From positions 1 to 39,137 of IMG/VR virus record IMGVR_UViG_3300013101_000029: 39,137 nucleotides of DNA; one strand, 5' to 3'. Shown here one piece after another: positions 539 through 34,154 of the stretch. The translations under genes were made by a program, and so were the position numbers. This stretch comes from a virus. The notes under the pieces are model-generated. The model was not told the origin of the DNA. It worked only from the letters and a program-made list of their open reading frames with translations, and ran no database searches. Every line of letters begins with the position of its first letter. Within the stretch, counting starts at the first letter, position 1.

Positions 539-890
539 CGAAGCGAAAGACCAATACGCTGCCGTTATCGTGATGCTTGTTGCGTATGCAAATTATGCAA
601 ATGAGCAGGAACGTATACAGATAACAAATCTTGCGTATGCTAAAAGTACGGTGGCAGCAATGTTTATTTACGGTACATTGGCAGCAACGGGAACGGTTGT
701 TATGTTCGGTAAAGGCTATGCATGGGCGGGATGGTTCGGTGTTTTAATATCGGTGTTCTGTTTCTGGTTGCTGTACTCGAACCTGATAATTGCAAACACT
801 TATCACAAGACGCGAAAGACATGGCAGGATACAAGGAAGGAAGCAGAATCAAAACTGTTCGACTACTCGTTGGGTGCCTTCGATGATTAG
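528..890 (+). CDS. Small two-pass membrane protein
   Basis: The protein has 120 residues. I chose ATG 528 (MERNEAKDQ) over an in-frame ATG 36 bases upstream because it limits the overlap with the preceding gene to 11 bases. Two hydrophobic segments, near residues 42-60 (AAMFIYGTLAATGTVV) and 66-88 (AWAGWFGVLISVFCFWLL), are flanked by an N-terminal soluble helix and a basic/acidic C-terminal tail. It probably sits in the host inner membrane with both ends on the same side. Its role is unknown; superinfection or membrane-signalling roles are possible but not shown. The ligase start overlaps its stop by 8 bases. Confidence 0.7.
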   Translation: MERNEAKDQYAAVIVMLVAYANYANEQERIQITNLAYAKSTVAAMFIYGTLAATGTVVMFGKGYAWAGWFGVLISVFCFWLLYSNLIIANTYHKTRKTWQDTRKEAESKLFDYSLGAFDD

Positions 891-1866
891 CCCAATGTTG
901 GCAACTAATTGGCGTAAATCTGCGCTGGCTACTAGCAAATGGTCATACGAAATTAAGTATGACGGCATCAGGGCAATGATGACTATATCTGGAAGCAAGG
1001 TAGAGATATTCTCCAGGTCAGGTAGAAACATTACTGACAAGTATCCCGAACTTGTAGGAAGTGTCCCCAAAGGGAACGAATACAACAGAATCGTACTCGA
1101 TGGTGAAATCATCGCTGTTGATGCTTTCGGTATGCCATCCTTTCAGGGATTGCAGAGTCGAATGAATCTCGAATCTGGTTCCAAGATTCTTGAGAGAGTG
1201 GAATCGGTTCCGGTCGAGTATGTGGTGTTTGACCTGCCGATACTTTGGGTTAACAACAGCAAGCAATTGGATACTCAGGTCGGCCCCACCAATTCATGGC
1301 TTGAACGCCGTGACAGTCTGGACAAGCTGTTCAAGGAAGGCATCTTCAAGTTTCCGACGGTGCAATCTGTCGCATCGGACGATATGGATGTAATGATTCA
1401 GTTCGCTGAGGACAACAACCTGGAGGGAATAATGGCGAAGCGTCACGACTCCCTCTACCTTCCGGGTGTCCGTGGACCAGCGTGGATGAAAAAGCCATTC
1501 ACAAGGCGTATCAAGGCTGTGGTGGGCGGATTCACCGAGGGTACGGGGAAGCGAAGCGATAAGTTTGGTGGTTTGGTACTCGGTTTGTACAATGGCCCAC
1601 AGCTTTACCACATCGGGTCGGTTGGCACCGGATTCAACGATACGACGTTGGGGTTGATGTCAACCATTCTTAATGGCAAGACATCAGATGTTTGCCCCTT
1701 TGTGGTAAAACCCCAAATAGGCAAACCGACAACATGGATTACGCCAGACCTGACCGTAGTGGTCGAGTTCAGGAATTGGACGGACGGGCTGCATATGCGT
1801 ATGCCGTCGTACAAGGGTGTGACGGATGAGCCGTCAGATAACTACCTTGACGCAACAAAAAGTTGA
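883..1866 (+). CDS. ATP-dependent DNA ligase, LigD ligase-domain type
   Basis: This 327-residue protein seals nicks or end-joined breaks in DNA using ATP. Nucleotidyltransferase motifs are in order: motif I KYDGIR with catalytic Lys25, VLDGEI near 71-76, motif III YVVFDL near 113, motif IV EGIMAK near 181 and motif V WMKKP near 201. A C-terminal OB-fold region follows, with VGGFTEGTGKRS and HIGSVGTGF, segments very like those of the ligase domain of bacterial LigD. The start is ATG 883 (MISPMLAT), since PMLA opens this family; an in-frame start further upstream would bury it in the membrane-protein gene. Polymerase and nuclease domains of full LigD are absent. A Ku-like gene lies two small genes downstream, so an end-joining role is likely. 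The family is confident, the partnership inferred. Confidence 0.93.
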   Translation: MISPMLATNWRKSALATSKWSYEIKYDGIRAMMTISGSKVEIFSRSGRNITDKYPELVGSVPKGNEYNRIVLDGEIIAVDAFGMPSFQGLQSRMNLESGSKILERVESVPVEYVVFDLPILWVNNSKQLDTQVGPTNSWLERRDSLDKLFKEGIFKFPTVQSVASDDMDVMIQFAEDNNLEGIMAKRHDSLYLPGVRGPAWMKKPFTRRIKAVVGGFTEGTGKRSDKFGGLVLGLYNGPQLYHIGSVGTGFNDTTLGLMSTILNGKTSDVCPFVVKPQIGKPTTWITPDLTVVVEFRNWTDGLHMRMPSYKGVTDEPSDNYLDATKS

Positions 1867-1901
1867 GCGAGAACTTATCTTTACTCTAAAGGAGTTTTGT
1901 G

Positions 1902-2096
1902 ATGAACAACGCTAGGAAAGTAGGTCGAAACCTACGCCCCGCCTGTACGTGTGAGCTAGTAGGCTCGGGATGCGAAGCCTGCTGGCCTCAGTACCACACG
2001 AACGGCTCGATGCCGTATGCTGAAAATAGGCAGAGACTTGAGCGGGTAGAGATAGACAACGCGAAGCGAGAAGTAGGCTATTACAGTGGACGTTAA
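1902..2096 (+). CDS. Small cysteine-rich protein between ligase and Ku genes
   Basis: A 64-residue protein starts at ATG 1902. AAAGGAG at 1888-1894 gives a 7-base spacer, which favours this ATG over the GTG one codon earlier. CTCELVGSGCEACWP carries four cysteines in CxC...CxxC form, a possible zinc knuckle, after a basic N-terminus (RKVGRNLR). The rest is a charged helix. It follows the ligase after a 35-base gap, one of the larger gaps in this arm, and overlaps the next gene by 11 bases. Function unknown; the placement makes it a candidate accessory to the end-joining pair. Confidence 0.6.
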   Translation: MNNARKVGRNLRPACTCELVGSGCEACWPQYHTNGSMPYAENRQRLERVEIDNAKREVGYYSGR

Positions 2097-2355
2097 GGAC
2101 CTGACGCTGTTCGTTCGTAAGTGGCGTGCTACCAAGTGGTTCGACGAATCGGACCACGAGGTTGCGGACGAGATACTCCAGGCAATCAAAGTGAATAAGA
2201 CAGATATCGTAGAGACGGTAGACGGAATGTTGGACAGAAGGCCCATCTGGAGATATATGAACTTTCTGCTCGACGTAAGAAGTATGGTTTCGCCTAGTGC
2301 GAAAGATGGAGATGAGGAATGTCAAGTTACAGAACAGGAATTAGTCTCAACGTAG
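2086..2355 (+). CDS. Unknown small acidic protein upstream of Ku
   Basis: This 89-residue protein starts at GTG 2086 inside the end of the preceding gene. It is predicted largely helical and acidic (FDESDHEVADEIL, VETVDGMLDRRP), with no cysteine pairs or membrane segment. Its 3' end overlaps the Ku-like gene by 37 bases, so the two are probably translationally coupled. I do not recognise it. The C-terminal tail overlaps Ku and may be dispensable. Confidence 0.55.
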   Translation: MDVKDLTLFVRKWRATKWFDESDHEVADEILQAIKVNKTDIVETVDGMLDRRPIWRYMNFLLDVRSMVSPSAKDGDEECQVTEQELVST

Positions 2356-3092
2356 GACCTATGACCCTGATTGCAGATATGCAGACAGTGGTCCCATCGG
2401 CGCAAAAGACGAGCATGAAGCTTGTTTGCCCCGTCCACAAATCGTTCGTGCATCAAGTATATGAATGTGATGCAGAACAACATCAAATTACGTATCAAGA
2501 AGCCCTGCGTGGTGTTGAAACCGAAAAGGGTATAAGGATTGTTCCACAGGAAACAATCCCGAAGGTTGAAAAGTCTGAATCTCTGTCATTTATTGGCGTG
2601 CCGTTGGAAAGTCTGGAAGCTAATACGATTCCGACAGGGAAAATGTATTACGTCTCGCCCTCCAAGAAGGGCGGCAACGGTGATATGTGGAACGTGATGC
2701 ATGAATTAGTCTCCAGTGAAGAAACGGCGTTTGTTACGCAAGGTGCGTTGAGGAAGGGTAGAGCAACAATATTTAGGCTCACACTTTTCCAGGATTATCT
2801 TACTATCCAAGCCCTTGCGTTTCCTGGCAACATTCGTGAAGCACCAGTTGTTCCCGAAGTTGGTGAAGATAAAGAGACGCTGAAACAATGGACAGATGCT
2901 GCCCAATCGTTTGCCGATGCTACGGCTATTAAGTGGAGTCAGTTCGATACCGAGGATGAATACGAAAAGGGACTGTTGGGGATACTTGAAACCGGCGAGC
3001 TGGTGGAGCAGGAAGAAACTGATACCGATACGACTGCTGCCGCACAAATCGCGGAACTGCAGGCTCTAGTGAAGGAATTGGAGGCGAAATAA
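2319..3092 (+). CDS. Ku-like DNA-end-binding protein
   Basis: The 257-residue protein aligns by eye along its length with bacterial Ku, the homodimeric ring that threads onto double-strand DNA ends. Matching blocks are: N-terminal TGISLNVGPMTLIADM against the Ku opening strand (SGTISFGLVNVPVKLY-like); YQEALRGVETEKGIRIVPQE against the block around the Ku 'KGYE...YVVL' motif; SLSFIGVPLESLE then YYVSPSKKG against 'FVPLDEID...YYLVPD'; and LTIQALAFPGNIREAP against 'HTLRYPDEIRDP'. A helical arm and acidic C-terminus (EEQTDTD-like, then a short coiled coil) follow. Start 2319 keeps the family N-terminus and has GGAG 7 bases upstream. Length is near usual for bacterial Ku. With the LigD-type ligase it suggests a phage end-joining set. 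Residue identity is low, so a profile search should confirm. Confidence 0.85.
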   Translation: MSSYRTGISLNVGPMTLIADMQTVVPSAQKTSMKLVCPVHKSFVHQVYECDAEQHQITYQEALRGVETEKGIRIVPQETIPKVEKSESLSFIGVPLESLEANTIPTGKMYYVSPSKKGGNGDMWNVMHELVSSEETAFVTQGALRKGRATIFRLTLFQDYLTIQALAFPGNIREAPVVPEVGEDKETLKQWTDAAQSFADATAIKWSQFDTEDEYEKGLLGILETGELVEQEETDTDTTAAAQIAELQALVKELEAK

Positions 3093-4184
3093 ATGCAAAT
3101 TGGGTTCGGTAACACCCGTGATGCGGAGGGTAGGCGAGAGTCTATACCGTTCGCCACGTTGATTGCTTGGCCTAGTGGTAAGACTTTGGATATTCCGAAG
3201 CTCACGATGGCGAAGCGTGGCGGTTGGGTGTACAAGCCGGAAGGTATGTGGACGAAGAAAGATAAGCACTTCGGTCGTGGCGAAGTGGGTCGCGAGAAGG
3301 CCCATGAGTATCTGACGGAGATAATCCGTGAGGCGTATGAGGAGCACGATTGGGAGCAACCCACGTTTGCTGGTCCTGGTATCAGTAAGCGAGAGGGGTC
3401 GGTGGGTACTTCGTATTACACCCGCTTTGCGTCGTCATATCAGTGGGAAACTCATGGTTTCGGGTTCATTGGTGCAGCATTGAAGCTTGTCGGTGACGAA
3501 CTGCAGGTGCATGTGGCATTGCCAACAGCGTTGTTGGTCGATGTGTACCCGAAGTACAAGCTGCCGATACAGCATCCGACGATAACGGTGATGACAGTTG
3601 TTGCTAACGACAACGACATCGGTCGTTTCGTAGAGTCGTGGATGGATAATCCGTGGAAATCGCTGACGTTCTTTCCGAATATCAACGGAACACTAAAAGT
3701 ACCCAACGCGGACGCCACAACGATGACCAATGCGGCGTTTGCGAATATTATGCGCCTCCTCAAGCCGAAGATTGACTTTGACCCTAATTGGACTGAGGCT
3801 GCCGAGTCATATCGGGAGACTGAGGACGGTAACGGTTGGAGTTACGGCATCGAGTCGTCGTTCATGTTGCGGTCAAAGAAATATCGGACAGAGGTTCTGA
3901 CCCATGCGACTCGCAAGGCAATGGAGCAACTCTCTAACGTAATGAAGGAATACGGTGTTGATATGAAGCTCGGCACCACAATCAACAACGAGTTCAATTC
4001 GTTGGAGTTCGATATTCCCGAGACACATGACCCCCACAACAAGAAAGGACATCGGTTCATTATTAGGCCGAATGGGATAGAAGTGGTCTGTGGTTTCGTC
4101 ACAGACGAGGACAATTACGTAAGCCATCAATCAAGACTGGCGGTTGATGAAATCGCCGCAATGTTGCAGGACGACGACGACTAA
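3093..4184 (+). CDS. Unknown 363-residue protein between Ku and MoxR
   Basis: It starts at ATG 3093, directly after the Ku stop, with GGAGG 8 bases upstream. The protein looks globular and mixed alpha/beta. An N-terminal part carries lysine/glycine-rich segments (AKRGGWVYKPEGMW, KKDKHFGRGEVG), a central beta-rich part (YQWETHGFGFIGAALKLVG) and a C-terminal helical part ending in DDDD. I see no nucleotide-binding loop, cysteine cluster or membrane helix. It lies between the Ku-like gene and the MoxR ATPase, 13 bases before the latter, so it may serve either one. I do not recognise its family. Confidence 0.85.
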   Translation: MQIGFGNTRDAEGRRESIPFATLIAWPSGKTLDIPKLTMAKRGGWVYKPEGMWTKKDKHFGRGEVGREKAHEYLTEIIREAYEEHDWEQPTFAGPGISKREGSVGTSYYTRFASSYQWETHGFGFIGAALKLVGDELQVHVALPTALLVDVYPKYKLPIQHPTITVMTVVANDNDIGRFVESWMDNPWKSLTFFPNINGTLKVPNADATTMTNAAFANIMRLLKPKIDFDPNWTEAAESYRETEDGNGWSYGIESSFMLRSKKYRTEVLTHATRKAMEQLSNVMKEYGVDMKLGTTINNEFNSLEFDIPETHDPHNKKGHRFIIRPNGIEVVCGFVTDEDNYVSHQSRLAVDEIAAMLQDDDD

Positions 4185-4197
4185 GGAAGGATGAAAT

Positions 4198-5391
4198 ATG
4201 ACAACTGTACAAGAGAAACTCTCGACACTACGAGATGAATTGCTCGCCACCCACTTTGAGAGGCACGACGAGGTAGACATCACGTTGAACTCTCTCCTAA
4301 TCGGTGAGCATGTCGTTTACATTGGACCTCCAGGGACAGCCAAGTCAATGCTGGCACGCAGTGTGTGCTCGGCAATCACGGGAGCGGATTATGGTGAACA
4401 TCTATTCACGAAGTTCACTACTCCGGAAGAGTTCCTCGGCCCAATCTCTGTCCAGGGGTTGAAAGAGGACGCATATCGACGGGTTACAAAAGAGAAGCTT
4501 CCCGAGAAACATATCTACTTCGCTGATGAGGTCTTTAAGGCTAACTCTGCGTCGTTGAATGAGCTTTTGCCGATTATGAACGAACGTGTGTTCTTCAATG
4601 ACGGTAAGGCGGTTCCGGTGCCTCTCGTGATGCTTATTGCGGCATCTAACGAGTTGCCATCTGATAGGGAAGAATTGTCGGCTATGTTCGACAGGTTCTT
4701 GTTCCGTAAGGCCGTGGATTATATCCATGAGGATACAAACTTCGTAAAGATGTTGATGCTCTCTGACGGATTCAAGGCATCTGACCCAATTACGTTCGAT
4801 GAATTGAAGGAAGCGCAGGCTGCTGTTGCGGCAATCCAGTTGTCACAGGACAACATCGACACGATTGTTGCTATCCGTAACGAGATGAACCTGGACGGGA
4901 TGGTTGTTTCCGATAGGCGTTATAAGAAGGCTACGAACGTGTTGAAGGCCGCTGCATATCTTGCAGGGCGTGATTACGTCGATGCTGACGACTTCTCAAT
5001 CTTGAAGCATGTGTTGTGGGAGAACCCGCAAAACATCCGTGAGGTTGAACGTCTGATTCTCAATCGTACGAACCCGACAGAACGTGAAGCACTTGAACTC
5101 ATCGAGATGGCTACAGAGATTCGCCAGGAGATGAGAGTTGAGCTGCGGAAGTTCAAGGCTCAGGGTGGCGATGAGCAGAAGATTAACCGTCAAGGTGTCG
5201 AGTGGTTCCAGAAGGCCAAGAAGCTCGGTAAGAAGTCGAAGGAACTTGAAGCCCGTACGAAGGCTTCCGGTAAGGCACTCAATAAGGTTGAGGAGGCTCG
5301 TTACTTCATCGCTCAGGTGATGACGGACGTTGCGAATGAAGCCCTGGGTATGGACACTTCGGCAATCGCAGATATGGTTAAAGGAAGTTAA
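4198..5391 (+). CDS. MoxR/RavA-type AAA+ ATPase
   Basis: This 397-residue protein is a MoxR-family AAA+ ATPase, a hexameric chaperone that remodels or activates partner proteins, classically with a VWA protein. Walker A is GPPGTAKS (43-50), Walker B is YFADE (107-111) followed by FKANSASLNELLPIMNER typical of MoxR, sensor 1 is AASNELP (148-154), and an arginine-finger segment FDRFLFR lies at 164-170. The lid domain follows, then a basic helical C-terminus rich in Lys and Ala. AAGGAAGG lies 7 bases before ATG 4198. The VWA partner is encoded at 6017-7585, matching the RavA-ViaA arrangement. Family very sure; substrate unknown. Confidence 0.95.
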   Translation: MTTVQEKLSTLRDELLATHFERHDEVDITLNSLLIGEHVVYIGPPGTAKSMLARSVCSAITGADYGEHLFTKFTTPEEFLGPISVQGLKEDAYRRVTKEKLPEKHIYFADEVFKANSASLNELLPIMNERVFFNDGKAVPVPLVMLIAASNELPSDREELSAMFDRFLFRKAVDYIHEDTNFVKMLMLSDGFKASDPITFDELKEAQAAVAAIQLSQDNIDTIVAIRNEMNLDGMVVSDRRYKKATNVLKAAAYLAGRDYVDADDFSILKHVLWENPQNIREVERLILNRTNPTEREALELIEMATEIRQEMRVELRKFKAQGGDEQKINRQGVEWFQKAKKLGKKSKELEARTKASGKALNKVEEARYFIAQVMTDVANEALGMDTSAIADMVKGS

Positions 5392-5393
5392 TA

Positions 5394-5804
5394 ATGGGAT
5401 TCGTTGACGAGGATGCGGTTCAGGCGTTGATTGAGAAGGTAGAGAAAGCGTTGAGGCCACTTGGCGTCACACTTGCGATGCCTCCGCAGGCTGCTTATGA
5501 CCCTGACTCGAAGGCCCTGATTCTCCAAATTGTCGGATTGGTTGGCGATTCGGCATTTGAGAAGCTTGGTCAAACAGATGAGTCGAAAGTGGCGAAGCGT
5601 GAGATGCAGGAACAGTTGAAGGACCAGAAGGACGCCCGTATGACGTCTATGGTGGATAGTGCGAAAGGCGAGATAGAGGCGATGATGCGTGGTGAGGATA
5701 TCTTCACTGATGCGTTGGAACGTCCCTGTCCGGAGTCTGAGGACGGTAAGCACAGTCTCCACCCAGTAGACGGGTTCTGCGTGCTATGTCATGCGGGAAT
5801 GTGA
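5394..5804 (+). CDS. Unknown protein in the MoxR-VWA cluster
   Basis: This 136-residue protein starts 2 bases after the MoxR stop, with AAGGAAG 6 bases upstream. The N-terminal half is helical (DAVQALIEKVEKALRPLG). The middle is a charged Lys/Glu/Met-rich helix, and the C-terminus holds C...H...CVLCH, a possible zinc-binding knuckle. Tight spacing to the ATPase suggests joint expression and perhaps an adaptor role between ATPase and VWA protein; this is inference only. Confidence 0.75.
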   Translation: MGFVDEDAVQALIEKVEKALRPLGVTLAMPPQAAYDPDSKALILQIVGLVGDSAFEKLGQTDESKVAKREMQEQLKDQKDARMTSMVDSAKGEIEAMMRGEDIFTDALERPCPESEDGKHSLHPVDGFCVLCHAGM

Positions 5805-6033
5805 CGGAAAGTGGAAATGGATGCAAGAATATGGCAGAAGGTGGCCGTCTCCAGAGCCGTCCGGCCCATCGGTTTCGATGGAACAATGGAGTAGTTGGGA
5901 ACAGGCGGTGCGTGATGTGGCGATTGGGTCGGTCGACCTAGAGCAATGGCGGATAGACAACTTTCTAGAATGTGGAATCGAGGACGAAAACAAGCCGTGG
6001 GTATCGGAGGATGTAGATGAAACGAACACCTGA
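5791..6033 (+). CDS. Unknown small tryptophan-rich acidic protein
   Basis: This 80-residue frame overlaps the preceding gene by 14 bases and the VWA gene by 17. It contains seven tryptophans and an acidic C-terminus (ECGIEDENKPWVSEDVDE). No good ribosome-binding site precedes ATG 5791, so expression may depend on coupling. No family recognised. It is accepted because it fills the space between two sure genes in the same strand. Confidence 0.6.
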   Translation: MRECDGKWKWMQEYGRRWPSPEPSGPSVSMEQWSSWEQAVRDVAIGSVDLEQWRIDNFLECGIEDENKPWVSEDVDETNT

Positions 6034-7585
6034 TTGGTTCAAGAATCTTGTCGCTAAGTCGTCTGGACGCGACCTGAGCGAGTTCAGGGTTCTAGACGAG
6101 TTCTACAAGGAAACCAGTACGGTCAAACATGACCGTTTCGACGCTATGCAGTATGACGGTATATTGGATAAGTCGGAAGCATTGGGTGACATAATTAAGG
6201 AACGTGCGGCAGACAACGAATCGTGGATGGACGTCGTAAAAGACGATTATTTGTCGCTGTATAAGGCAGTACCCAAACTACGTACTGCGAACGAAATAAA
6301 ACCAACTCATCGTATCAACCACACCGCCATGTCGAAAATGATGGAAACCAAAGAGTTTGACGAACTTCGGACATACACCGAACTCGACGAATGGGCCTCA
6401 GCAATGGGTGCCGTGGCTTCATCGACACTTCTCGGAGAATACTTCGACGAAGCAAAAGACCTCATGGCACAGCAAGAAAAGATGGAGAAAGCCGACGAGG
6501 ACCTCGAAGATGCTATGGATTCACTGAAAGACATGGCAGACCAAGAGGAAGTCGACGACCAGGAATTGCAGGAAGCATTAGACAACCTGCAAGACCAACT
6601 CAAAGACTATCAGGACCAAATGGGTGACCTTGCCGAAGAAATCGACAAGAACTCAAAGGACATAAGAGCAGCCGCTAAGGGTGCAGCAAAGGGAGCAAAA
6701 GGTGAAGCCGAGGACCTACAAGCAGCAGTAGCTACATTCGGAACAGACGCCGGTGCCCTTCGCAGGATGCCAGCAAAGAACCGAATGGAACTCGCCAGTC
6801 GTATCGCACGGTCCAAGAAGTTGCGTAGATTGGCTGACCTAGCCGGACGCATGAAGCGATTCGCCTGGGGAGAACAAGCACGGAAGATGACTCATGGAGT
6901 GGATGAAATCCACGATATCAGTCAAGGTAACGACATCAACCGTGTCCTACCCGTCGAATTGGCTGCCCTTGCAGACGAAGAAACAGAGCTGTTGTTCTAC
7001 AAGCGTTTCATCGAGAAGCAGTTGTTGCAGTACGAATTGCGTGGGAAAGAAAAGGTTGCCCGTGGTGCAATCATCTGCCTTATCGACAACTCGGGTTCAA
7101 TGACCGGAGACAGGGAAATGTGGGCTAAGGCTGTTGGGTTGGCGCTACTTGATGTGGCACATAAACAGGGTCGTGACTTCTACGGAATCCACTTCTCTAG
7201 TGCCTACGATGACCTACAGGAGTTCCACTTCGTCAAGGGTGACACTTCTGACATCAATCAGGTGTTGGACTTTGCTGAATACTTTATCGGTGGAGGCACG
7301 GACTTTGAGAAACCGTTGACTCGTGCCGTTGAGGTGCTGGAGGCTCAGTTCTCTGACGAGAACGCCCAGAAGGGTGACATCATCATGATTACAGATGGTG
7401 AGTCTCGTGTGTCTGACGATTGGTTGGTCCGATTCGAGAACTCGAAGGAAGTTATCGGATTCAGACTGTACGGTCTGTTGATTGGTTCGTACGGTCAACT
7501 GCTTAAGGAAATGTCTGATACGTTCCTGACAATCGGTGACTTGACTAAGGGTGACGACGCTAAGGAGGTATTTGGCTATGTCTAA
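6017..7585 (+). CDS. VWA-domain protein, CoxE/ViaA-like partner of MoxR
   Basis: This 522-residue protein ends in a von Willebrand A domain with a complete metal-ion-dependent adhesion site: DNSGSM (Asp357, Ser359, Ser361), a Thr in GGGTDF (428) and Asp460 in MITDGE. The residues before it (LPVELAAL, LFYKRFIEKQLLQYEL) match the linker seen in ViaA/CoxE-type bacterial proteins. Residues about 145-235 form a long acidic coiled coil rich in Asp, Glu and Gln, followed by a short Ala/Lys/Gly hinge. GGAGG lies 6 bases before ATG 6017. With the MoxR ATPase it should form a cytoplasmic remodelling pair; the client is unknown. Confidence 0.92.
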   Translation: MKRTPDWFKNLVAKSSGRDLSEFRVLDEFYKETSTVKHDRFDAMQYDGILDKSEALGDIIKERAADNESWMDVVKDDYLSLYKAVPKLRTANEIKPTHRINHTAMSKMMETKEFDELRTYTELDEWASAMGAVASSTLLGEYFDEAKDLMAQQEKMEKADEDLEDAMDSLKDMADQEEVDDQELQEALDNLQDQLKDYQDQMGDLAEEIDKNSKDIRAAAKGAAKGAKGEAEDLQAAVATFGTDAGALRRMPAKNRMELASRIARSKKLRRLADLAGRMKRFAWGEQARKMTHGVDEIHDISQGNDINRVLPVELAALADEETELLFYKRFIEKQLLQYELRGKEKVARGAIICLIDNSGSMTGDREMWAKAVGLALLDVAHKQGRDFYGIHFSSAYDDLQEFHFVKGDTSDINQVLDFAEYFIGGGTDFEKPLTRAVEVLEAQFSDENAQKGDIIMITDGESRVSDDWLVRFENSKEVIGFRLYGLLIGSYGQLLKEMSDTFLTIGDLTKGDDAKEVFGYV

Positions 7586-8898: not shown

Positions 8899-9136
8899 CG
8901 AACTAATCAACGAGATATTCAAGATACAAGAGCAACGTAACCCGGACGTCGACCCAGGTGACATAACGATTGACGTACAAGATGACATGCCGCTAGTGAT
9001 GGTACGACAGACTATTTACCACAAACCAGGGATGCCGTTTGCTGAACACATCATGCTGGCACAAGGTACGCCAGGTGATTCGATACAAGAAGCACTAGAA
9101 AACTTTCTCCAGGAGGTGAAAGATGGGATCAGATAA
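8888..9136 (+). CDS. Unknown 82-residue protein
   Basis: ATG 8888 (MTPDELINEIF) was chosen because earlier in-frame starts lie deep in the previous gene. The product is acidic, with an N-terminal helix, a central strand pair (DITIDVQDDMPLVMV) and a C-terminal amphipathic helix. The strong AGGAGG used by the next gene lies inside its 3' end. No family recognised. Confidence 0.65.
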   Translation: MTPDELINEIFKIQEQRNPDVDPGDITIDVQDDMPLVMVRQTIYHKPGMPFAEHIMLAQGTPGDSIQEALENFLQEVKDGIR

Positions 9137-10106
9137 CGCAGCGACAACGCTAGAAGAATATATTGACGGGGTACCCGACATTAACGTGCTTGGGTACATC
9201 GGGTGGTACTCACTACCTGACCCGCACATGGAACGAGAGCAACTCGTAAGACTCGCGAAAGCAGCGAAGATGAGCGAGGACCATCTGCCAGGGCCACCGA
9301 GGGTTGCGGACGCATTCCGTAGGGCCACAAGGTACACGGACAAGGCGAACAAGAAACCGCAGGCTACGACAGGTAGTTCGGTGTTGTACACGTTCATGCT
9401 ACGTCCCGTGTCGTCCACGAGGGAAGAAACCGAAGTGCATTTGGTTCTCGAAATCCTAGACAAGCAGGGCAAGAGCCTTGAGCATGTCGAAGCAGCGAGA
9501 ATCGTTCTCAATAAGAAAACCGACTTCGTGACTACGACGATTCTTCCGACGTGGACTAAGGGACACATTGTTTACGAGCCGTTGATTGAGACGGAACTAA
9601 ACGAGTTCAGGGCTGAGTTCATTCAGGCCAAGAAGGAAGTGGAGCCTCAAAACATCCGTAAGACGATTCGTGATGAATTGTGGGAGATGAATGCTCTGAA
9701 TGTTCGCTCTAAGGGTGGCGTCTACTTCATTCCCGTCGGCAACAAGGATAGACTTGTTGCACTCGAAACATGGGTAAATAGTTTGGGTGCATCGTTGCAT
9801 ACCTTGCCTTTGCCGGATACCGGAAAGCAAAAGGACATGGTGAAGGCCGCCTTTGAATCTGATGTGCACGGACAAGCACACGAGATGATTGGACAGCTCA
9901 CCAACCTGACCAAAGAAGGTAAGAAGATGCCTCCGTCAGTGTGGAACAGGTACAAAACGAGACTAAATGACCTGACCAAGAGGACGAAGCAATACTCTGA
10001 CCTTGTGGAAGAAGAAATGGGTAAGGCAGGCACCGAACTCATCATGTTGCATGAGAAAATCTTCTCCATCCTAGAGAACGATCAAGTATCTGAGGGGAGA
10101 AGCTAA
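9123..10106 (+). CDS. Unknown 327-residue phage protein, possibly DUF6744-like
   Basis: It starts at ATG 9123 with AGGAGG 6 bases upstream, the best ribosome-binding site in this arm. The N-terminus (LGYIGWYSLPDPHMEREQLVR) followed by a PPRVADAFRRATRY segment resembles a conserved actinophage family I remember as DUF6744, though I cannot confirm the name. The middle is beta-rich, then helical with basic residues. The C-terminal third is a probable coiled coil. There is no catalytic motif I can name. Similar proteins often lie near MoxR genes in actinophages; that is a recollection, not a result. Confidence 0.8.
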   Translation: MGSDNAATTLEEYIDGVPDINVLGYIGWYSLPDPHMEREQLVRLAKAAKMSEDHLPGPPRVADAFRRATRYTDKANKKPQATTGSSVLYTFMLRPVSSTREETEVHLVLEILDKQGKSLEHVEAARIVLNKKTDFVTTTILPTWTKGHIVYEPLIETELNEFRAEFIQAKKEVEPQNIRKTIRDELWEMNALNVRSKGGVYFIPVGNKDRLVALETWVNSLGASLHTLPLPDTGKQKDMVKAAFESDVHGQAHEMIGQLTNLTKEGKKMPPSVWNRYKTRLNDLTKRTKQYSDLVEEEMGKAGTELIMLHEKIFSILENDQVSEGRS

Positions 10107-11939: not shown

Positions 11940-12791
11940 ATGTGGAGTACGCCAACCGACTGGTCGCAGTTTGAGACAACTGCGTCAAGTAACACAGGTG
12001 TAGTTCAATTCGTGGGGCAGGAAGCATTGAAGGAACGGGTTAGTCCGTTCCTCGAAGCAGATGAGTTCCCACATACTCTCTTGACGGGAGAACCTGGACT
12101 GGGAAAGTCGCAGTTTGCTGAATGGATTGCGGTGACACGCAATGTCGACTATCAGGTACTTACTGCCCCAGTTGCCGAAGCGGACCTGGATGTTGCCGTC
12201 TGGAAACCGTTCGTCATACTGGACGAGGCCCACAAGCAGAAAGATTCAACGTGGCTGTTTCAACTCATGAATCAACACGAGTACACGTTCATTGCCACAA
12301 CGAATCTACCAGAAAGAATGGACGACGCATTTAGATCACGGTTCGTAATGCAACTAAGGATTGCACCGTACACACTAGAGGACATGATGAAAATTGTGTT
12401 GTTCTATTCGTATGGTGGATGCGAGGACGAAGCACCTCTAGCCGTATTCGCTGCTGCGTCCGCAGGTAATCCGAGACAAGCACGGAGAATCATGGACACA
12501 GCACGAGCGCTAGGCAATTTCGACCCCGAAGTAGTCCTAAGTACCGTCAGAGTGACAGCAGACGGAGCAACAGAAGAGCACATCGCATACCTAGAACTCT
12601 TGTCGAAACACGACAAGCCACTAGGTGTAAATTATATTGCGACGATGCTCTACATAGACGAGAAAACGATCAAATACCTTGAGAGGCTCCTAACCGAAAT
12701 GGACTTGGTGCAACTCACAACTAGTGGAAGAAAGCTCACAGGAAGAGGACGTGCATACGTCCACCTGCTGGAAGAAAGGGGTCTAGTATGA
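11940..12791 (+). CDS. RuvB-like AAA+ ATPase
   Basis: This 283-residue protein resembles RuvB, the hexameric motor that migrates Holliday junctions. Walker A is GEPGLGKS (50-57), Walker B VILDEAH (92-98), sensor 1 IATTNLPE (118-125), and an arginine-finger segment FRSRF lies at 131-135. GNPRQARR in the lid matches sensor 2 in RuvB. The C-terminal 75 residues fit the RuvB winged helix: LGVNYIATMLYIDEKTIKYL then LTGRGRAYVHL. AAGGGAG lies 5 bases before ATG 11940. Length is slightly below RuvB (about 340) because the N-terminus is short. No RuvA or RuvC gene is visible. A clamp-loader-like role is the main alternative. Confidence 0.87.
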   Translation: MWSTPTDWSQFETTASSNTGVVQFVGQEALKERVSPFLEADEFPHTLLTGEPGLGKSQFAEWIAVTRNVDYQVLTAPVAEADLDVAVWKPFVILDEAHKQKDSTWLFQLMNQHEYTFIATTNLPERMDDAFRSRFVMQLRIAPYTLEDMMKIVLFYSYGGCEDEAPLAVFAAASAGNPRQARRIMDTARALGNFDPEVVLSTVRVTADGATEEHIAYLELLSKHDKPLGVNYIATMLYIDEKTIKYLERLLTEMDLVQLTTSGRKLTGRGRAYVHLLEERGLV

Positions 12792-25255: not shown

Positions 25256-25627
25256 CTAATAGATTATAAAATTGCCAACAGGTATACGTAAGATATCTCC
25301 AGACGCAGGACTAACCCCTGTCACCGAATCATAGAATAGCATATTGCCTCCCTGCCGACTGTCAACAAGGAATGCGTAAGTCAACAAACCCCACGAACCT
25401 TCTGGTGCCCACGAAACAAGGATATCGCTTGCCATAGCCGTCACATATTCGCCAAACGAAATCGGAATCCTGTTGTATCCCGCCGCAACAACCTCGCCAG
25501 TGAATAATCCCTCGTCACCTGGATTTGCGGACCCTAACCCAACGTATGAATCGGTGAACAACGGCATGTCAGTTTTATTAATCAACGCTTCGATCATCAA
25601 TTTTTTGGCATAAGTAGTAGCAGGCAT
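25256..25627 (-). CDS. Tail-fibre-related protein
   Basis: This 123-residue protein starts at ATG 25627 overlapping the previous stop (ATGA). The opening ATTYAKKLMIEALINKTD, followed by a VGLGSANPGDEG turn and a Gly/Phe-rich middle, matches a small phage tail family in which a beta domain follows an N-terminal helix. It lies between two fibre-like genes and may join fibre to baseplate. The family label is by pattern and context. Confidence 0.7.
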   Translation of the reverse strand: MPATTYAKKLMIEALINKTDMPLFTDSYVGLGSANPGDEGLFTGEVVAAGYNRIPISFGEYVTAMASDILVSWAPEGSWGLLTYAFLVDSRQGGNMLFYDSVTGVSPASGDILRIPVGNFIIY

Positions 25628-27711
25628 CAGTCTTTCCTCACGATCTTCCCAGTACCATAACGCAATTTTTGCCCTTCCTTGATTACCTCTATATCTGCAG
25701 CCTTAAGTAATTCGTAGCCTACGCCGACACCGAACGTTACATATATATCGACTGTTAAGTCAATATATTTGACCAATTGTATATCGGTCGTATGTGTGAC
25801 CTTGACCTGAGAAGATAGAGACATATCGGTCGTGTGGTCATGGCTTTCCCTGCCAACACAGACAACATCAGTCGTATGGTCAGAATATTGTGTGCCTCCC
25901 GCTGATTTCGTAATCAAATCTGACGTACTGGCTATTGGCAATGGGTTCAACACCATGTCGGTCGTATGCGTCGAACGCATAGATGGCGTATCTTTCAACG
26001 GCCAAACAATAAGTACGTCGGGAGCATAGGAAGCCTGACTATATCCGTCTGCAAGATACACAAAATCACTACCGTCAATGGTAATCATGCCGCCACCAAA
26101 AATAAGGCTATCGTTATAACCGTATGTGCCCGAATACGTTAGCGCCGTCATCGGATATGCCCACCCCCAAGCAGTCGTGGGATGGCTCCAGTTAACTCCT
26201 GTCGTTACTTCGCCACGAGGTTGTTGTGTCGCCCCAAGCATGTCTCTAACAATGTCGAAATTGTCTGAAAGTGTTTTCTGTGTATAAATATATGTGCCAA
26301 ATCCGTCGGTGACTGTATGCCCCCTGTCGCCAGGATTTGAGTAAGCCGTATCAGCCTCATTACGGAAAAAGTTCACATAACCATCAGAAGATTTAAACCC
26401 CAACATCGGGCCTTCCGGCCCATACGTATCACCATAGTTGTGATCTAAACCTTCGGTACTATTAAACGTGACAGAGGTTAAGGTCGGATTGGCCTCCGAT
26501 TTCCAAACATAATACGCGTGCTTATCCGGCGTTCCCGAAATACCACCCGCGTCATAGACATAAAAGTAATAACAATACAGGTCACTACCCACCGTGCGTG
26601 TCACACTATTGTCACCCTGAAATGCTTGTGTAGAGAAGGGGAGCGGCGACAACGATTGGATAGTATCGAAAACATTTGTATTGCTGATCGAGATATGATG
26701 TCCGACAAGAGAGCCAGTATATCCGGTGTCGAAGAAATGGCACCTATCGTCTTTACCCAAAAAAACTCGGGAGGTATCTCCGGGATACTGGGCTGTACGA
26801 TAATTTGTATAAGTATTCGTCCACGATGCGGACGTCCACGTATCCACACCCGTTCGCCTGCTGTATGTTGCAATAGACTCAGACAATGTACCATGCACAG
26901 TTACCGGCCCTGGGCGAAACACCACGACTTCGCCGGTTGAACGCACAACAAGATCAATCCACCCATCGTAATAAGTCGACACCTGATCGGTATGAATTGC
27001 TTCGTTCTCTACATCCCACGTTTCTGTTGACATGTCAAAACACGAATAATATGCACGCCATTCTTGGGTCTGATAATAATATCTCCCGTTGGCGTCAAGG
27101 AATGCCATATGCAATTTGTCATCAACCTGATATACGGCCACACAGTCAGTCATCTGCTTAGGCAGAAGATTCGGAGGTTCCTCCGTGTCATACCACTGCT
27201 GCAAGTCTCGCGTCTCAACTAGAAGAAACGCATTTGCGGCATTCTTTTTCGTGACGGCAACAGTTGAATAATTGACACGATTTACTTGCCAAACATTGTC
27301 AGACGAATCAACAAACAACGACGCGGAACGCGGATAATACGGACGCGAAATGTTTTCACCGAATCTTTGCCTATCGCCATCGTCTGGATAATCCCCGGCA
27401 TAGGGAAACCACATTTCATAATCCTGGGTTCCCGCTACCGGCGGAGACTGATCCCAATGCCTAACCGTAAGCTTATTACCAGCCCTCGCAGCGTATACGC
27501 CACCGCCAGTATCGCCAGTGGTGCGACGGCCTGACCCGTATAGGGCGTCCCAATCCTCGCTACTATCTAACGTCCATTCAGTCCAATCATTAACGAATCC
27601 GTCGAATGTGGGCCACCCGTCGCCGGAACCTTCGATCATTATGTCAACATCATGCCGAACCTGTCCAGGTCCGTCACATACTAGATTCGTTGTATGGGTT
27701 TTAGTTGCCAT
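25627..27711 (-). CDS. Large tail-fibre/adsorption protein with THTTD repeats
   Basis: This 694-residue protein opens with KTHTTNLVCDGPG and has a long middle of aromatic and acidic strands with recurrent beta-propeller-like turns (VYQVDDKLHMAFLDANGRYY). The C-terminal 115 residues carry four copies of an HTTD[MVI] motif, at about residues 582, 612, 627 and 640, each followed by a hydrophobic strand. ATG 27711 overlaps the upstream stop. I infer a receptor-binding or fibre role. The same motif occurs twice in the next upstream protein, so the two probably share an attachment or assembly unit. Confidence 0.75.
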   Translation of the reverse strand: MATKTHTTNLVCDGPGQVRHDVDIMIEGSGDGWPTFDGFVNDWTEWTLDSSEDWDALYGSGRRTTGDTGGGVYAARAGNKLTVRHWDQSPPVAGTQDYEMWFPYAGDYPDDGDRQRFGENISRPYYPRSASLFVDSSDNVWQVNRVNYSTVAVTKKNAANAFLLVETRDLQQWYDTEEPPNLLPKQMTDCVAVYQVDDKLHMAFLDANGRYYYQTQEWRAYYSCFDMSTETWDVENEAIHTDQVSTYYDGWIDLVVRSTGEVVVFRPGPVTVHGTLSESIATYSRRTGVDTWTSASWTNTYTNYRTAQYPGDTSRVFLGKDDRCHFFDTGYTGSLVGHHISISNTNVFDTIQSLSPLPFSTQAFQGDNSVTRTVGSDLYCYYFYVYDAGGISGTPDKHAYYVWKSEANPTLTSVTFNSTEGLDHNYGDTYGPEGPMLGFKSSDGYVNFFRNEADTAYSNPGDRGHTVTDGFGTYIYTQKTLSDNFDIVRDMLGATQQPRGEVTTGVNWSHPTTAWGWAYPMTALTYSGTYGYNDSLIFGGGMITIDGSDFVYLADGYSQASYAPDVLIVWPLKDTPSMRSTHTTDMVLNPLPIASTSDLITKSAGGTQYSDHTTDVVCVGRESHDHTTDMSLSSQVKVTHTTDIQLVKYIDLTVDIYVTFGVGVGYELLKAADIEVIKEGQKLRYGTGKIVRKD

Positions 27712-30008
27712 CAGAAGTTAGTTGGGTAATTAGAGCCATCACCTTGAGTGTGGTAGTGGCGGGTCGCATGGATTGCTTTTATATCTTTCGTTGAATCGTC
27801 AACATATAGCACTAACAGGTGGTTCAGCGCCGAGCCGTAATCACCATATGTGGTACTTATTTCTGCCTCTTTTGTTTCGTACTGACGATTCCACAGAATC
27901 GCTTGGGTTGTCCCGTTGTGCGATGCAACATTTCCAGAACTTATACTCCTGTCGACATACTGCCAAACATCATGTCGACCATATACGGTTTCCATAATAG
28001 ATAACTTGCCATCAGTGTCGGTTAACAACAACATCGGGTCTATTCCCTCGGCCTCGCCTGGCGTAGTGGGAAGATTGAACCCCAACTGATTCCGCGTACC
28101 CATCAACCGAGGCGTGGTCTGATGCTTCACTTCACAAATCAGGTAAGGATCATCTGCTGTCGTAAGGTAAACGCTTCCACCAGTAAGCGAATCGGTACCA
28201 ATATAGAACGAATTATATGTAATCGGAGTAACACCATTGTAGACAGTACCCATTGTGACAACCCACGGATCGGATTTAGTGCCAGCGCCAACCACGGTAG
28301 CAGTCGTAATTGCAGACATGCCCGTGATAGCTGACTGTACGGTGGCCGCGTTCGCGTTATGCGCGATAGCAGCAGATTCCGTATTGTATACATCGTGTGG
28401 ATATTTTAATGTAAACGTTCCACCCGATGCAGTCGTCCAAATCTCTTGAGTAGATAGTGGTTCTATCGTTTGGCCCATGAGGTAAGTGTTGGATGTTTCC
28501 TCTCTGGTCCAGAGAACATAGCGCGTCTGATGCACCATTCCGTACACTATGCCGACGATGCGCTCATCATACGTTGTATTGGAGGGGTCGAGATGTTGTG
28601 CGGGTGTATTGAACATATCGTGCGTGCCGAGAGAATACGGAGTTTGCCCATCGCTTGCCTTGTCACCCCATACGCCAACTTGATCTTCGTCGTACACCGC
28701 CCAAGTATGACACGCCTTGTCAACACCGTCCACGCTTTCATAGTTGACAAGTATGTTTGCACTAGATGCATATTTTTTTGTACTATAATCAGTGTCATTA
28801 TAGCCCATGACGTTAACGCGAACCCCCCACACGCTTGGTAGCGATGCGGGCGCATTCAACATTTTACGCATCTGTAGGCTAAGTCCATCCCTATTCGTAT
28901 CACCAGTTGTTTGGTCGCGACCCCATTTATTCATATACACTACATACGCCCAATAAGCACCATCAATAATCTCGTTATGGGTCGTATCCGATGCACCCAA
29001 CACATACCTACCACCATACACTTCACCATTAATGAGTTGCACCGCCATATATCCATATATTTCGTCGATATCATACGATGCTATTGCCGTATCGAAAGTC
29101 CATGACGGAGAATATGTAGCATAAACATAATCAGCAGCCTCAGGATCGGCATTACTCCACACGCGACACACCAACTTCTTGCCATCATCTGCCGCAACAG
29201 CCCAATTGGCAACAAAACTCTTAAACGAATCAACCATAACACCAGCAGGATTAGCAGCACCCGGCAACGTGATACCAGCGACAGTACCGCCAGGCAACGT
29301 ATACAAGTCAGTCGTATGGGAAACCGTAGACCGCAACACCATATCCGAGGTATGGGTTCGCTTGGGCTGGAAAATGTCGGAGAACTCGATAATACGTGGA
29401 TGTGACTCTGCACCCGACTCGGCATTACCGGCCTGCCACGACGTTTCGGTACCATCAGCAGAAAGCTTATAGGCAAGAATCGTACCGATATCACCATTAC
29501 CCTGCCCTGTATCGGGGTTCCCGCCAATGGTATATCCGGTAGTTGTAGAAGTAAGACCACCCGTATCGGCTTGTGCCGATACACAGAAACCGATAAGGAG
29601 ATTCCCCGCTGTTGCAGCAGCAATAGTACCCGAAGTTGGTGTTGCCGTATTCTCCCGAAGATAATTCAACGAAGTCGCAACATGTATAGGATTACTGTTC
29701 GACGGAATAAACGCCGAAATAACCCCAGCCCAATCCTCACTATCGCTAGTCCAGGTAAAATTAGAAGCAGCAACATCTGCCGAATCGGCAACCTTATAAC
29801 CAGACCAAGAAGTAAGGTTGTTACCAGTCGTCGTTCCCCAAGTAAAAAGCCGGGTCCAACCCGAAGGGTAAGTAGCCACCAAGTCGGGGTAGTCCTTACC
29901 AATGGCAGCAATCATCAAGTCACCGACAGCCAAACCAACCGGCTTGTTGATTACCAGTGACGTACCAACGTTTGTATTCTCTTGTGAATTCCTATGAGTG
30001 AGAGCCAT
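27711..30008 (-). CDS. Large minor tail/fibre protein
   Basis: This 765-residue protein starts at ATG 30008 with AAGGAG 6 bases upstream; GTG 30011 is discarded. The N-terminal 200 residues look like a lectin-type jelly roll seen in phage fibre proteins (INKPVGLAVGDLMIAAIG, then YPSGWTRLF). Next come RTHTSDMVL and SHTTDLYTL, and a central large domain rich in aromatic residues. Near residue 570 lies GGTFTL...VVGAGTKSDPWVV, a copy of a domain found twice in the next upstream protein. A role in host binding is inferred. Confidence 0.78.
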   Translation of the reverse strand: MALTHRNSQENTNVGTSLVINKPVGLAVGDLMIAAIGKDYPDLVATYPSGWTRLFTWGTTTGNNLTSWSGYKVADSADVAASNFTWTSDSEDWAGVISAFIPSNSNPIHVATSLNYLRENTATPTSGTIAAATAGNLLIGFCVSAQADTGGLTSTTTGYTIGGNPDTGQGNGDIGTILAYKLSADGTETSWQAGNAESGAESHPRIIEFSDIFQPKRTHTSDMVLRSTVSHTTDLYTLPGGTVAGITLPGAANPAGVMVDSFKSFVANWAVAADDGKKLVCRVWSNADPEAADYVYATYSPSWTFDTAIASYDIDEIYGYMAVQLINGEVYGGRYVLGASDTTHNEIIDGAYWAYVVYMNKWGRDQTTGDTNRDGLSLQMRKMLNAPASLPSVWGVRVNVMGYNDTDYSTKKYASSANILVNYESVDGVDKACHTWAVYDEDQVGVWGDKASDGQTPYSLGTHDMFNTPAQHLDPSNTTYDERIVGIVYGMVHQTRYVLWTREETSNTYLMGQTIEPLSTQEIWTTASGGTFTLKYPHDVYNTESAAIAHNANAATVQSAITGMSAITTATVVGAGTKSDPWVVTMGTVYNGVTPITYNSFYIGTDSLTGGSVYLTTADDPYLICEVKHQTTPRLMGTRNQLGFNLPTTPGEAEGIDPMLLLTDTDGKLSIMETVYGRHDVWQYVDRSISSGNVASHNGTTQAILWNRQYETKEAEISTTYGDYGSALNHLLVLYVDDSTKDIKAIHATRHYHTQGDGSNYPTNF

Positions 30009-30019
30009 CACTCACTCCT

Positions 30020-32332: not shown

Positions 32333-32730
32333 TAGTTCACCATCGGATTCTTAAATGCTGTCCCCTGAAACACAAAACTATGTCTCAATTTGTACGTTCC
32401 ACGACTACTTACATTAATCCAAAGTATAGCCCCAGTATGGGAAGGCTTGATGCCTTTGATTATGAAATCTTCATCTCCGACATCTTTAGTGATCCATTCC
32501 GCTACCCCGACAGTCACAAACGGATAATCACCACTCGTCAATTCGCCACTGACAAGCGCCACACCGGAAGAAAAGAACGGTGCGCCCTCATACGAAATCC
32601 CGAATTCCAACTCAGGTGTCATGATAGAGCCAGCACCGTTTGTTTCAAACGCAAAAACGACATTAGTGGGAGATGCCCACGTACGCCTATCAAGATCAAC
32701 TCTTTTGACAACCCCTCGTGTTCCCCTCAT
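32332..32730 (-). CDS. Small tail protein, short relative of the 34151-35449 product
   Basis: This 132-residue protein starts at ATG 32730 in an ATGA overlap. VKRVDLDRRTWAS at the N-terminus and FVTVGVAEWITKD near residue 75 match LKRQEVDRKTWAE and IMTVGVAEWITDE in the 432-residue protein three genes up in transcription, so they share one fold with the long insert absent here. A role in the virion is inferred from context. Confidence 0.78.
   Translation of the reverse strand: MRGTRGVVKRVDLDRRTWASPTNVVFAFETNGAGSIMTPELEFGISYEGAPFFSSGVALVSGELTSGDYPFVTVGVAEWITKDVGDEDFIIKGIKPSHTGAILWINVSSRGTYKLRHSFVFQGTAFKNPMVN
32492..32516. repeat. 25-base direct repeat, copy 1
   Basis: The 25 bases beginning ATCCATTCCGCTACCCCGAC are identical to 34212-34236 in another tail gene. 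On the coding (minus) strand they encode TVGVAEWI. The identity at DNA level points to a recent duplication or gene conversion between the two tail genes. Confidence 0.85.
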
Positions 32731-34154
32731 ATCAACACCACCTCATCTTGCGCTGAAAATACCGGAATCTGTCGAGCATTTGAATAACCCTTAAGGGCAT
32801 TGCCTTCGAACTTGAGGGTCACGTTTGCGGTTAACGCTTTAGGCGGAGACAGGCGATGAATTATCCTCATACCAAGCTCACCTAACCCATAACCCAGCTT
32901 CTGGAAACCGATCCATCCTTCTTCGGTGAACAGAATCGAACCGTCAGTATCGAAACACCACGCAACGTCAAGGGTTCCATAAATAGGTCGCTCGCCTTCA
33001 CGCCAACGTATCATCCACTCCTGAACACCATAATATGGCCCCCATCTTGCCGTACTCTCCGATCCGGAAGACCCGCCACCGATAAGCTCCATCTGTGGAT
33101 TGAACGGATCGAATGTCACCGGAGCATTCTTTATCAATGTCGGAAGATAGACGCGATTAAATGTGTACCCCTCGGATTCCCATGCTGTTCCATAGTCAAT
33201 CCAATAGAGCCAATCATCTTTAATCCTGGCTTGCGTACCGCGCAATCCATACCAGCCGAGTCCTATAGGCCACGGCCCGTTAGATTTATCTTTGCTTCCG
33301 TCTGGATAATTAAATGACCTAGAGGTTTGGCCTGGATTAGCCAGGTTCACCATCAGGTTTTCTATATCTCCGCCGCCGGTTCGCATCCTACGGATAGCAG
33401 CATATGATTGGTTATTCCCTGCCGGTGCTTCCGTCGACGAGTTTTCAGTCCAATATATCCAACCATCGTCATGTACCGCCATACCCATATAGCCGGAATA
33501 CGAACTGTCGACACCAAGACCATACGGTAACCCAGTTGACGGATCAATTTCATACGAACCATACGAACTATACGATTGGAATAGTTGAATCCATTCCAAA
33601 GTACCGAGACTATCAATATGTGACCGACATAACCCAGCCTGACTCCCATTAGAACTCATCCAATAAATATGTTCACCATGACGTGACGGAAAGCAGTACG
33701 GGTATGCATCACCATCAATGTCGTGCTGAACAAACGTTCTATCCGATTTGTCGAAAACTACAATACCCCAAACCCCACCAGTCACATCAAACGAATAAAC
33801 CTTGTCGTCACCTTCTAGCCCACTATGAAGATGCATCCAGGCTTGCGACTCACCAAACTGCCAGTCAACCATGCGGCCACTACTTGGAGGCACGGAATCC
33901 CATTGCATAGCATTGGTCCACCAATCCGCAGTTAATTGTTCCCACACCGGAGAACCAGGCGTCCTCTCAAAAAACGATAAACCCTCCGTATATGTGCCAG
34001 CACCAGAAGTTTCGGTTTGTATATGCCACAACGTACCATCAAAGAACTTGATGATTCCGCCCTGCTCGGAGTTGTTATAGTCACCCATAGGACCAAGGCC
34101 AATAGTCGTTCCGGTCCACTGATTAGAACCAACCATTTCCCATCCAGTAGTCAT
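32727..34154 (-). CDS. Probable beta-propeller tail protein
   Basis: This 475-residue protein starts at ATG 34154 in an ATGA overlap. Repeating strand pairs with aromatic turns (GTLWHIQTETSG, EHIYWMSSNGS, GWIYWTENSS, DWLYWIDYGT, GSILFTEEGW), spaced by roughly 40-90 residues, suggest a six- or seven-bladed propeller as in low-density-lipoprotein-receptor YWTD folds. Such domains often bind sugars or proteins. I infer a receptor-binding part of the tail. No catalytic residues are visible. Confidence 0.72.
   Translation of the reverse strand: MTTGWEMVGSNQWTGTTIGLGPMGDYNNSEQGGIIKFFDGTLWHIQTETSGAGTYTEGLSFFERTPGSPVWEQLTADWWTNAMQWDSVPPSSGRMVDWQFGESQAWMHLHSGLEGDDKVYSFDVTGGVWGIVVFDKSDRTFVQHDIDGDAYPYCFPSRHGEHIYWMSSNGSQAGLCRSHIDSLGTLEWIQLFQSYSSYGSYEIDPSTGLPYGLGVDSSYSGYMGMAVHDDGWIYWTENSSTEAPAGNNQSYAAIRRMRTGGGDIENLMVNLANPGQTSRSFNYPDGSKDKSNGPWPIGLGWYGLRGTQARIKDDWLYWIDYGTAWESEGYTFNRVYLPTLIKNAPVTFDPFNPQMELIGGGSSGSESTARWGPYYGVQEWMIRWREGERPIYGTLDVAWCFDTDGSILFTEEGWIGFQKLGYGLGELGMRIIHRLSPPKALTANVTLKFEGNALKGYSNARQIPVFSAQDEVVLI

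Follow-up and report, generated by a model that had tools for sequence, protein, structure and literature searches.

DUF6744 as a recurrent companion of viral MoxR-VWA gene pairs

What would a virus do with a MoxR-class AAA+ ATPase and a VWA protein, and would the two act alone or with a further component? In the MoxR pairs (RavA-ViaA, CbbQ-CbbO, NorQ-NorD, Rea1) a hexameric ATPase carries a docked VWA protein, which presents a partner bound at its metal ion-dependent adhesion site (MIDAS). The question is raised here by IMG/VR virus record IMGVR_UViG_3300013101_000029, a sequence of 39,137 bases, of class linear and possibly a fragment (the window in what follows, meaning the whole stretch), whose viral gene content includes endolysin, tail and primase/helicase genes. 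A first-pass annotation had placed such a pair at 4198-7585, with complete Walker motifs in one protein and a complete MIDAS in the other, and both coordinates and motifs are exact, as confirmed by translation and by Pfam and PHROG. It had also taken as its unit the pair together with two small genes lying between, and this unit was drawn wrongly, since the component that recurs with the pair, a protein of the family DUF6744, is encoded outside that interval, and the small genes are without found relatives. The features concerned, all on the + strand, are the following.

4198..5391, +: MoxR-class AAA+ ATPase, 397 amino acids (PF20030, PF07728, PF17868, PHROG 19600)
4324..4347, +: Walker A of the ATPase, GPPGTAKS, residues 43-50 (from the translation; kept in related loci)
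4525..4530, +: Walker B of the ATPase, D110-E111 (from the translation and alignment)
6017..7585, +: VWA co-chaperone, 522 amino acids (VWA_2, 1.3e-10; PHROG 24053, 7.5e-71)
7085..7099, +: MIDAS motif DxSxS of the VWA protein, D357-S361 (invariant in 31 sequences)
7298-7300 and 7394-7396, +: T428 and D460, which complete the MIDAS (likewise invariant in the 31 sequences)
9123..10106, +: DUF6744 protein, 327 amino acids (PF20529, 2.8e-37)

Recurrence of DUF6744 with the pair

The DUF6744 gene of the window lies 1.5 kb downstream of the pair, and its product reaches 128.8 bits against PF20529, whose gathering cut-off is 27, thus belonging to that family. Pair loci, several tens of them and non-redundant, were collected by scanning IMG/VR and a set of genomes with one for each species (single-protein scans of viral contigs gave no matches), and DUF6744 accompanies the pair in about 24 diverged loci from phages, IMG/VR and Bacillota, often as a contiguous cassette in the order DUF6744-MoxR-VWA (D-M-V). 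The closest named phage, Moorella phage MTATph1 (identities of 40% for MoxR, 32% for VWA and 24% for DUF6744, with adjacent MoxR and VWA genes), shares with the window one further family near the pair, and this family is DUF6744; the two differ in that MTATph1 has the order D-M-V, with a ribonucleotide reductase (RNR) gene beside DUF6744, whereas the window has the order M-V-D, with Ku-like and ligase genes. In IMG/VR, no more than about 6 kb separates DUF6744 from the pair in loci L019, L039, L041, L045, L051, L053, L055, L059, L062 and L067 (L064 being a near-copy of L062, and L053 and L015 coming from the same record), and contiguous D-M-V cassettes are seen in L045, L055, L062, L098, L101 and L105. 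In record G015 one end of the contig holds the DUF6744 gene, and MoxR and VWA are divided between its two ends, an arrangement that would make them adjacent if the genome were circular. At a greater distance, 15-25 kb, DUF6744 is present on the record or contig of the pair in L065, L066, G003 and G431; in the first two of these it is 15-17 kb away, and their VWA proteins group with that of the window (support 96/98).

When the search was started from DUF6744 instead, 12 of 398 Bacillota genomes exceeded the Pfam cut-off, and MoxR and VWA genes were found within about 6 kb of DUF6744 in L093, L094, L096, L098, L101, L102 and L105 (Gracilibacillus genome G001). The VWA type was present in 9 of the 12 DUF6744-positive genomes as against 10 of the 386 negative ones (Fisher p = 3e-11, or 5e-10 once the genome used as query and centre is left out), a figure to be read with the proviso that these genomes are not independent, because the DUF6744 and VWA genes both travel on mobile elements. 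In the Deltaproteobacteria and Myxococcota genomes that carry the pair, no DUF6744 was found.

The trio is therefore very probably a real recurrent module. Of the gene families clustered, DUF6744 is the one that stays with the pair when the genomes have otherwise nothing in common; it is therefore the prime partner candidate and rather likely to be the partner of the pair, either as the protein held at the MIDAS or as a client adaptor. Its AlphaFold2 model is of good quality (mean predicted local distance difference test, pLDDT, 83.9; predicted template modelling score 0.73), and the best viral structural match of this model is a protein of the archaeal tailed virus HVTV-1 (E 1.6e-18). HVTV1_25, of 383 amino acids, the same length as that structural match, is a DUF6744 protein by its sequence as well (profile E 1e-27; 67 bits against the cut-off of 27). 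Matches of DUF6744 to helical-bundle sequences were judged to be coiled-coil noise, and the third genes of HHTV-2 and HCTV-2, considered as possible DUF6744 members, gave a negative result.

The presence of a MoxR-VWA pair in phages is not new, since the literature records it for Bacillus phage 0305phi8-36 (orf66/orf63; PMC2147016), for group 2.2 jumbo phages, in which a metallopeptidase is fused to the VWA (PMC7824862), and for haloviruses, which keep it within a replication/accessory module (PMC7911831). What is new is the recurrent DUF6744 partner: no mention of DUF6744 was found in the papers searched, and no such partner is reported for the known phage pairs.

The two proteins of the pair and their known relatives

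The ATPase consists of an AAA module (residues 7-194), a lid (220-287) and a helical C-terminal tail, and it belongs to the MoxR class by its Walker A and B motifs, sensor 1 (N151), arginine finger (DRF, 165-167) and sensor 2 (SDRR), as well as by class-specific AAA and lid profiles (bpMoxR, PF20030, 1.1e-44; AAA_5, PF07728, 1.1e-24; AAA_lid_8, PF17868, 7.5e-22); PHROG 19600, the MoxR phage family, is matched over nearly the full profile (E 1.3e-85). The VWA protein has an N-terminal helical region, an acidic coiled coil and a C-terminal VWA domain at about 350-506, and its match to PHROG 24053, the VWA phage family, spans residues 22-521, nearly its full length. The long acidic coiled coil noted at first reading is borne out at residues 147-240, where the AlphaFold2 model (pLDDT 83.7) predicts three long helices and where 29 D/E stand against 11 K/R. 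The solved folds nearest to this model are the VWA of NorD (9qhe, from the NorQ-NorD complex) and the MIDAS domain of Rea1 (6qt8), both of them AAA-linked MIDAS domains, and the VWA protein therefore fits the role of a MoxR co-chaperone. By its gene arrangement the window thus holds a MoxR-VWA co-chaperone pair, a complete-MIDAS VWA protein being encoded close to the ATPase, with two small open reading frames (ORFs) between them.

The catalytic and metal-binding residues are also those that persist. The Walker residues are preserved in the aligned MoxR proteins of related loci, and none of the five MIDAS residues varies in an alignment of 31 VWA sequences, whose identity to the window VWA is 25-35%; such conservation in diverged relatives is far beyond chance. 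The first-pass annotation had named the loss of these motifs in close relatives as a refutation of its proposal, and the proposal withstands this check. The one clear loss found is that of Aphanizomenon phage CL131 (L003, 3054-4379), whose VWA protein reads EESAAM at the MIDAS, while its MoxR keeps the Walker motifs; the next gene encodes a DNA polymerase III beta clamp. This phage, 0305phi8-36 and the haloviruses resemble the window in having neighbouring MoxR or AAA and VWA genes away from the structural genes; CL131 differs in its lost MIDAS and in lacking DUF6744. Another variation is seen in L020 (7971-10572), and also in L070, where the VWA gene is interrupted at the MIDAS by an insert of about 1.2 kb with an ORF of 278 amino acids that resembles, by eye, a zinc finger plus a PD-(D/E)XK homing endonuclease; the L020 insert is intron-like, and no Rfam intron matched it.

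The likeness to RavA-ViaA that had been proposed holds at the level of the superfamily and goes no further. Like the enterobacterial system, the window has a MoxR AAA module with its lid, a VWA co-chaperone with a helical N-terminal part (which aligns to ViaA 102-449) and neighbouring genes; moreover, the ATPase is 38.9% identical over residues 6-280 to a Salmonella ATPase encoded beside ViaA. In contrast to that system, the window pair is phage-borne and accompanied by DUF6744, and its proteins are not RavA and ViaA themselves, because they score 217 bits against a cut-off of 681 for NCBIfam RavA (NF010054) and 103 against 500 for ViaA (NF008230). The alignment with RavA structures covers the AAA module only (phmmer, residues 5-286, 1.2e-50); since these matches end at residue 286, the tail of about 110 residues has no match to a LARA-like domain among the RavA structures compared.

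With NorQ-NorD and CbbQ-CbbO the window shares a MIDAS-bearing VWA partner of a MoxR ATPase, and these systems suggest a further explanation, namely that the pair activates a cofactor-containing or metallo-enzyme, for example in the maturation of a phage ribonucleotide reductase. The closeness of the VWA fold to NorD agrees with this, as does the RNR gene next to DUF6744 in the Moorella phage; in HVTV-1, RNR likewise lies three small genes before the DUF6744 homologue. The window pair differs from the NorQ-NorD and CbbQ-CbbO systems in being without a linked metallo-enzyme substrate gene and in its N-terminal region. Against the explanation, the RNR link is limited to these two cases, because tblastn found no RNR in the other loci. 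RNR was consequently rejected as a general partner, the explanation as a whole appears very improbable, and the role in metal or redox enzymes mentioned in the first-pass annotation finds no support for a phage.

A third comparison is with the MoxR-vWA ternary systems (VMAP, iSTAND, FtsH, beta-propeller), proposed as switches in conflict systems (PMC7159879), which likewise combine MoxR, VWA and a conserved third protein; in addition, the best Pfam match of our ATPase is bpMoxR. By this analogy the machine would serve host takeover or counter-defence, remodelling or dismantling a host complex (RNA polymerase, a nuclease, a respiratory or a defence complex), with DUF6744 conferring target specificity, and the placement of the module in a non-structural region would suit such a function. 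The third protein of the window is, however, DUF6744, and its carrier a phage rather than one of the cellular, multicellular-type bacteria; no VMAP, iSTAND, FtsH, beta-propeller or effector domain was found in the window trio with Pfam and defence models, neither the VWA nor the third protein bearing an effector. MoxR and DUF6744 were unmatched by the defence models, the VWA protein gave only matches of coiled-coil type, mainly on its coiled coil, and the swapping of architectures known from conflict effectors is not seen in DUF6744. We thus consider host takeover improbable.

Genomic setting and candidate targets

Trio loci tend to be placed among replication and repair genes: in L101, a gene for a single-stranded DNA-binding protein directly beside the cassette and, at a greater distance upstream, genes for an exonuclease, a repair protein and a primase; in L045, genes for primase/helicase, exonuclease and Sak4; a sliding clamp (L093); primase/helicase and exonuclease (L053); a primase (L055); a replication initiator (L105); and, in L019, a ligase directly before MoxR that overlaps its start, and a clamp-loader homologue 150 bp after DUF6744. 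In the window itself the trio has for neighbours a ligase, a Ku-like protein of non-homologous end joining and a clamp loader, as follows.

790..1866, +: ATP-dependent DNA ligase of the LigD ligase-domain type (TIGR02779, 4.5e-61, just under the cut-off; PF01068, PF04679)
2319..3092, +: Ku-like end-joining protein, 257 amino acids (TIGR02772 Ku_bact, 1.5e-13; PHROG 4873, 1.7e-5)
3093..4184, +: protein of 363 amino acids, unknown family, immediately 5′ of MoxR (ORF)
5394..5804, +: ORF of 136 amino acids between MoxR and VWA, with C112 and CxxC at 129-132 (no family match)
5791..6033, +: ORF of 80 amino acids overlapping both neighbours, coding status uncertain (ORF only; no family match)
11940..12791, +: clamp-loader AAA+ protein, 3′ of DUF6744 (PHROG 168, 1.8e-14)

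The Ku-like protein scores 50.9 bits against TIGR02772, below the cut-off of 150, over nearly its full length, and is thus a divergent Ku-like protein. The gaps between its gene, the 363-residue ORF and MoxR are of 0 and 13 bases on the same strand, and the Ku-like gene probably lies in the same transcription unit as MoxR; a scan of the window for promoters and terminators gave sites no more numerous than in shuffled sequence, and therefore co-transcription rests on gene spacing only. The Ku-like and LigD-type ligase genes (790-3092), upstream of MoxR on the same strand, form a possible two-gene end-joining module of the phage.

Both of the small intervening genes exist as ORFs, and the cysteine knuckle attributed to one of them corresponds to the cysteines of the 136-residue product. 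Neither product has a family match in Pfam or PHROG, and among the first set of related loci none encodes a relative of the 136-residue protein, for which reason both look like lineage-specific, local insertions rather than parts of the machine; in most relatives the MoxR and VWA genes are adjacent or overlapping, with usually no or few intervening ORFs. The 363-residue protein has no family match at E<0.01 (Pfam, PHROG, NCBIfam) and no homologue in related loci; this protein and the 136-residue one were rejected as core parts, showing no homology to anything in those loci.

The contrary possibility, also raised at first reading, is that of a virion-assembly chaperone, with the pair folding, assembling or remodelling head or tail proteins. 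Such a role has been proposed for the group 2.2 jumbo phages, with ATV p618/p892 cited as precedent (PMC7824862), and for a Staphylococcus jumbo phage the discussion of virion proteins that co-purify includes a MoxR-like ATPase (PMC10638138). ATV has in common with the window a virus-encoded MoxR plus VWA, and differs in being an archaeal spindle-type virus whose pair is linked to tail development, the ATPase similarity being 27% over 41% of the query. The terminase gene about 4 kb downstream in L062 and the portal gene close to the pair in a lineage that carries a reverse transcriptase (RT) would also suit assembly. However, the window pair lies on the + strand with the ligase, Ku-like and clamp-loader genes, whereas the tail-type genes lie on the - strand at 25-38 kb; replication genes neighbour most trio loci, and the halovirus pair, as already mentioned, lies in a replication/accessory module. 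Assembly is a serious rival; the gene neighbourhood favours DNA metabolism, and we hold the former to be rather unlikely.

The RT-carrying lineage comprises twelve loci in which the pair is next to an RT gene (L042, L043, L044, L046, L047, L049, L050, L057, L058, L061, L063 and L070; of these, L042 and L043 are closely related, and some of the records are fragmentary), most of which also carry a glycosyltransferase and a portal gene, on the other strand. The RT (RVT_1, 2e-23; PHROG 2825) possibly belongs to a diversity-generating element. On the VWA tree, taking labelled rows only, the DUF6744 and RT labels require two changes as against about nine in shuffles; support for the deep branches of this tree is weak, and it is rooted at the midpoint only. 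A distant DUF6744 was sought in the RT-class and the other pair-only loci: the profile-profile comparison found none, and Pfam searches of the whole records found it in L065 and L066 alone. The two exclusive flavours, with DUF6744 or with RT as neighbour, offer a natural comparison.

Among side observations, PAPS-reductase-like genes occur near the cassette in two unrelated loci (L019, 10271-11347; L098, 3727-4953), and in L045 (4896-6287) an amidoligase-family gene (PHROG 2443, 2.9e-27) lies just upstream of the contiguous cassette. In the window, 25627-38517 encodes large - strand proteins (456-1022 amino acids) nearly without family matches, the exceptions being weak major-tail-protein and endolysin matches. 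The actinophage origin assumed by the first-pass annotation is not established, the matches of the primase being many yet distant, at about 23-28% identity.

A proposed remodelling machine

The explanation that we prefer, tentatively and with slightly less than even confidence, is that of a MoxR-VWA remodelling machine specific to phages and of the general type of RavA/ViaA and NorQ/NorD, which would have DUF6744 for its dedicated partner and DNA-metabolism complexes of the phage for its target. By analogy with the family, the MoxR protein would form an ATP-driven hexamer, on which the VWA protein would dock via its helical and coiled-coil part, and the Mg2+-bound MIDAS would grip a partner and present it for remodelling. 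DUF6744 would be the dedicated partner, as client adaptor or as client, and the machine would assemble or disassemble DNA-replication or end-repair complexes of the phage; in the present phage, complexes involving the Ku-like protein, the ligase and the clamp loader are possible targets. What we observe is that the ATPase and MIDAS motifs are intact, that the module recurs and that it usually has a replication and repair setting; the target we infer: DNA-metabolism complexes are the likeliest because of the gene neighbourhood, and we hold this part of the proposal as plausible, at rather less than even confidence.

Several points weigh against this remodelling machine. The neighbours of the trio may be incidental, because the early regions of phages are mixed, and in L062 and L041 they include terminase or portal genes. 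DUF6744 is absent from all twelve RT-carrying records, searched whole, which keep the pair and mostly have a portal gene nearby; conversely, 3 of the 12 DUF6744-positive Bacillota genomes are without a detected pair, the DUF6744 gene being broken in one (G285). For the DUF6744 model the PDB offers no match at E<=0.001, and its fold hence gives no hint of function. Finally, HVTV-1 has an annotated AAA-VWA pair 15 kb from HVTV1_25, which the MoxR and VWA hidden Markov models do not match (hhalign probability of 3% for the AAA protein); this pair is too diverged for the profiles and is therefore suggestive only.

The viral role of the widespread MoxR-VWA pairs is unsettled, the proposals so far being of virion assembly by analogy with ATV. 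The recurrent DUF6744, with a predicted fold unlike solved structures, provides a concrete candidate partner, the contiguous loci are easy to clone, and with the trio found, DNA metabolism takes the place of virion assembly as the most testable hypothesis. In its widest and more doubtful form, the proposal would be that many unrelated phages use a three-protein DUF6744-MoxR-VWA machine on their own DNA-replication or end-processing complexes, a relative of DUF6744 occurring even in the archaeal virus HVTV-1. If this were true, it would represent a role undescribed for MoxR proteins, and one that makes use of a protein fold without a solved representative.

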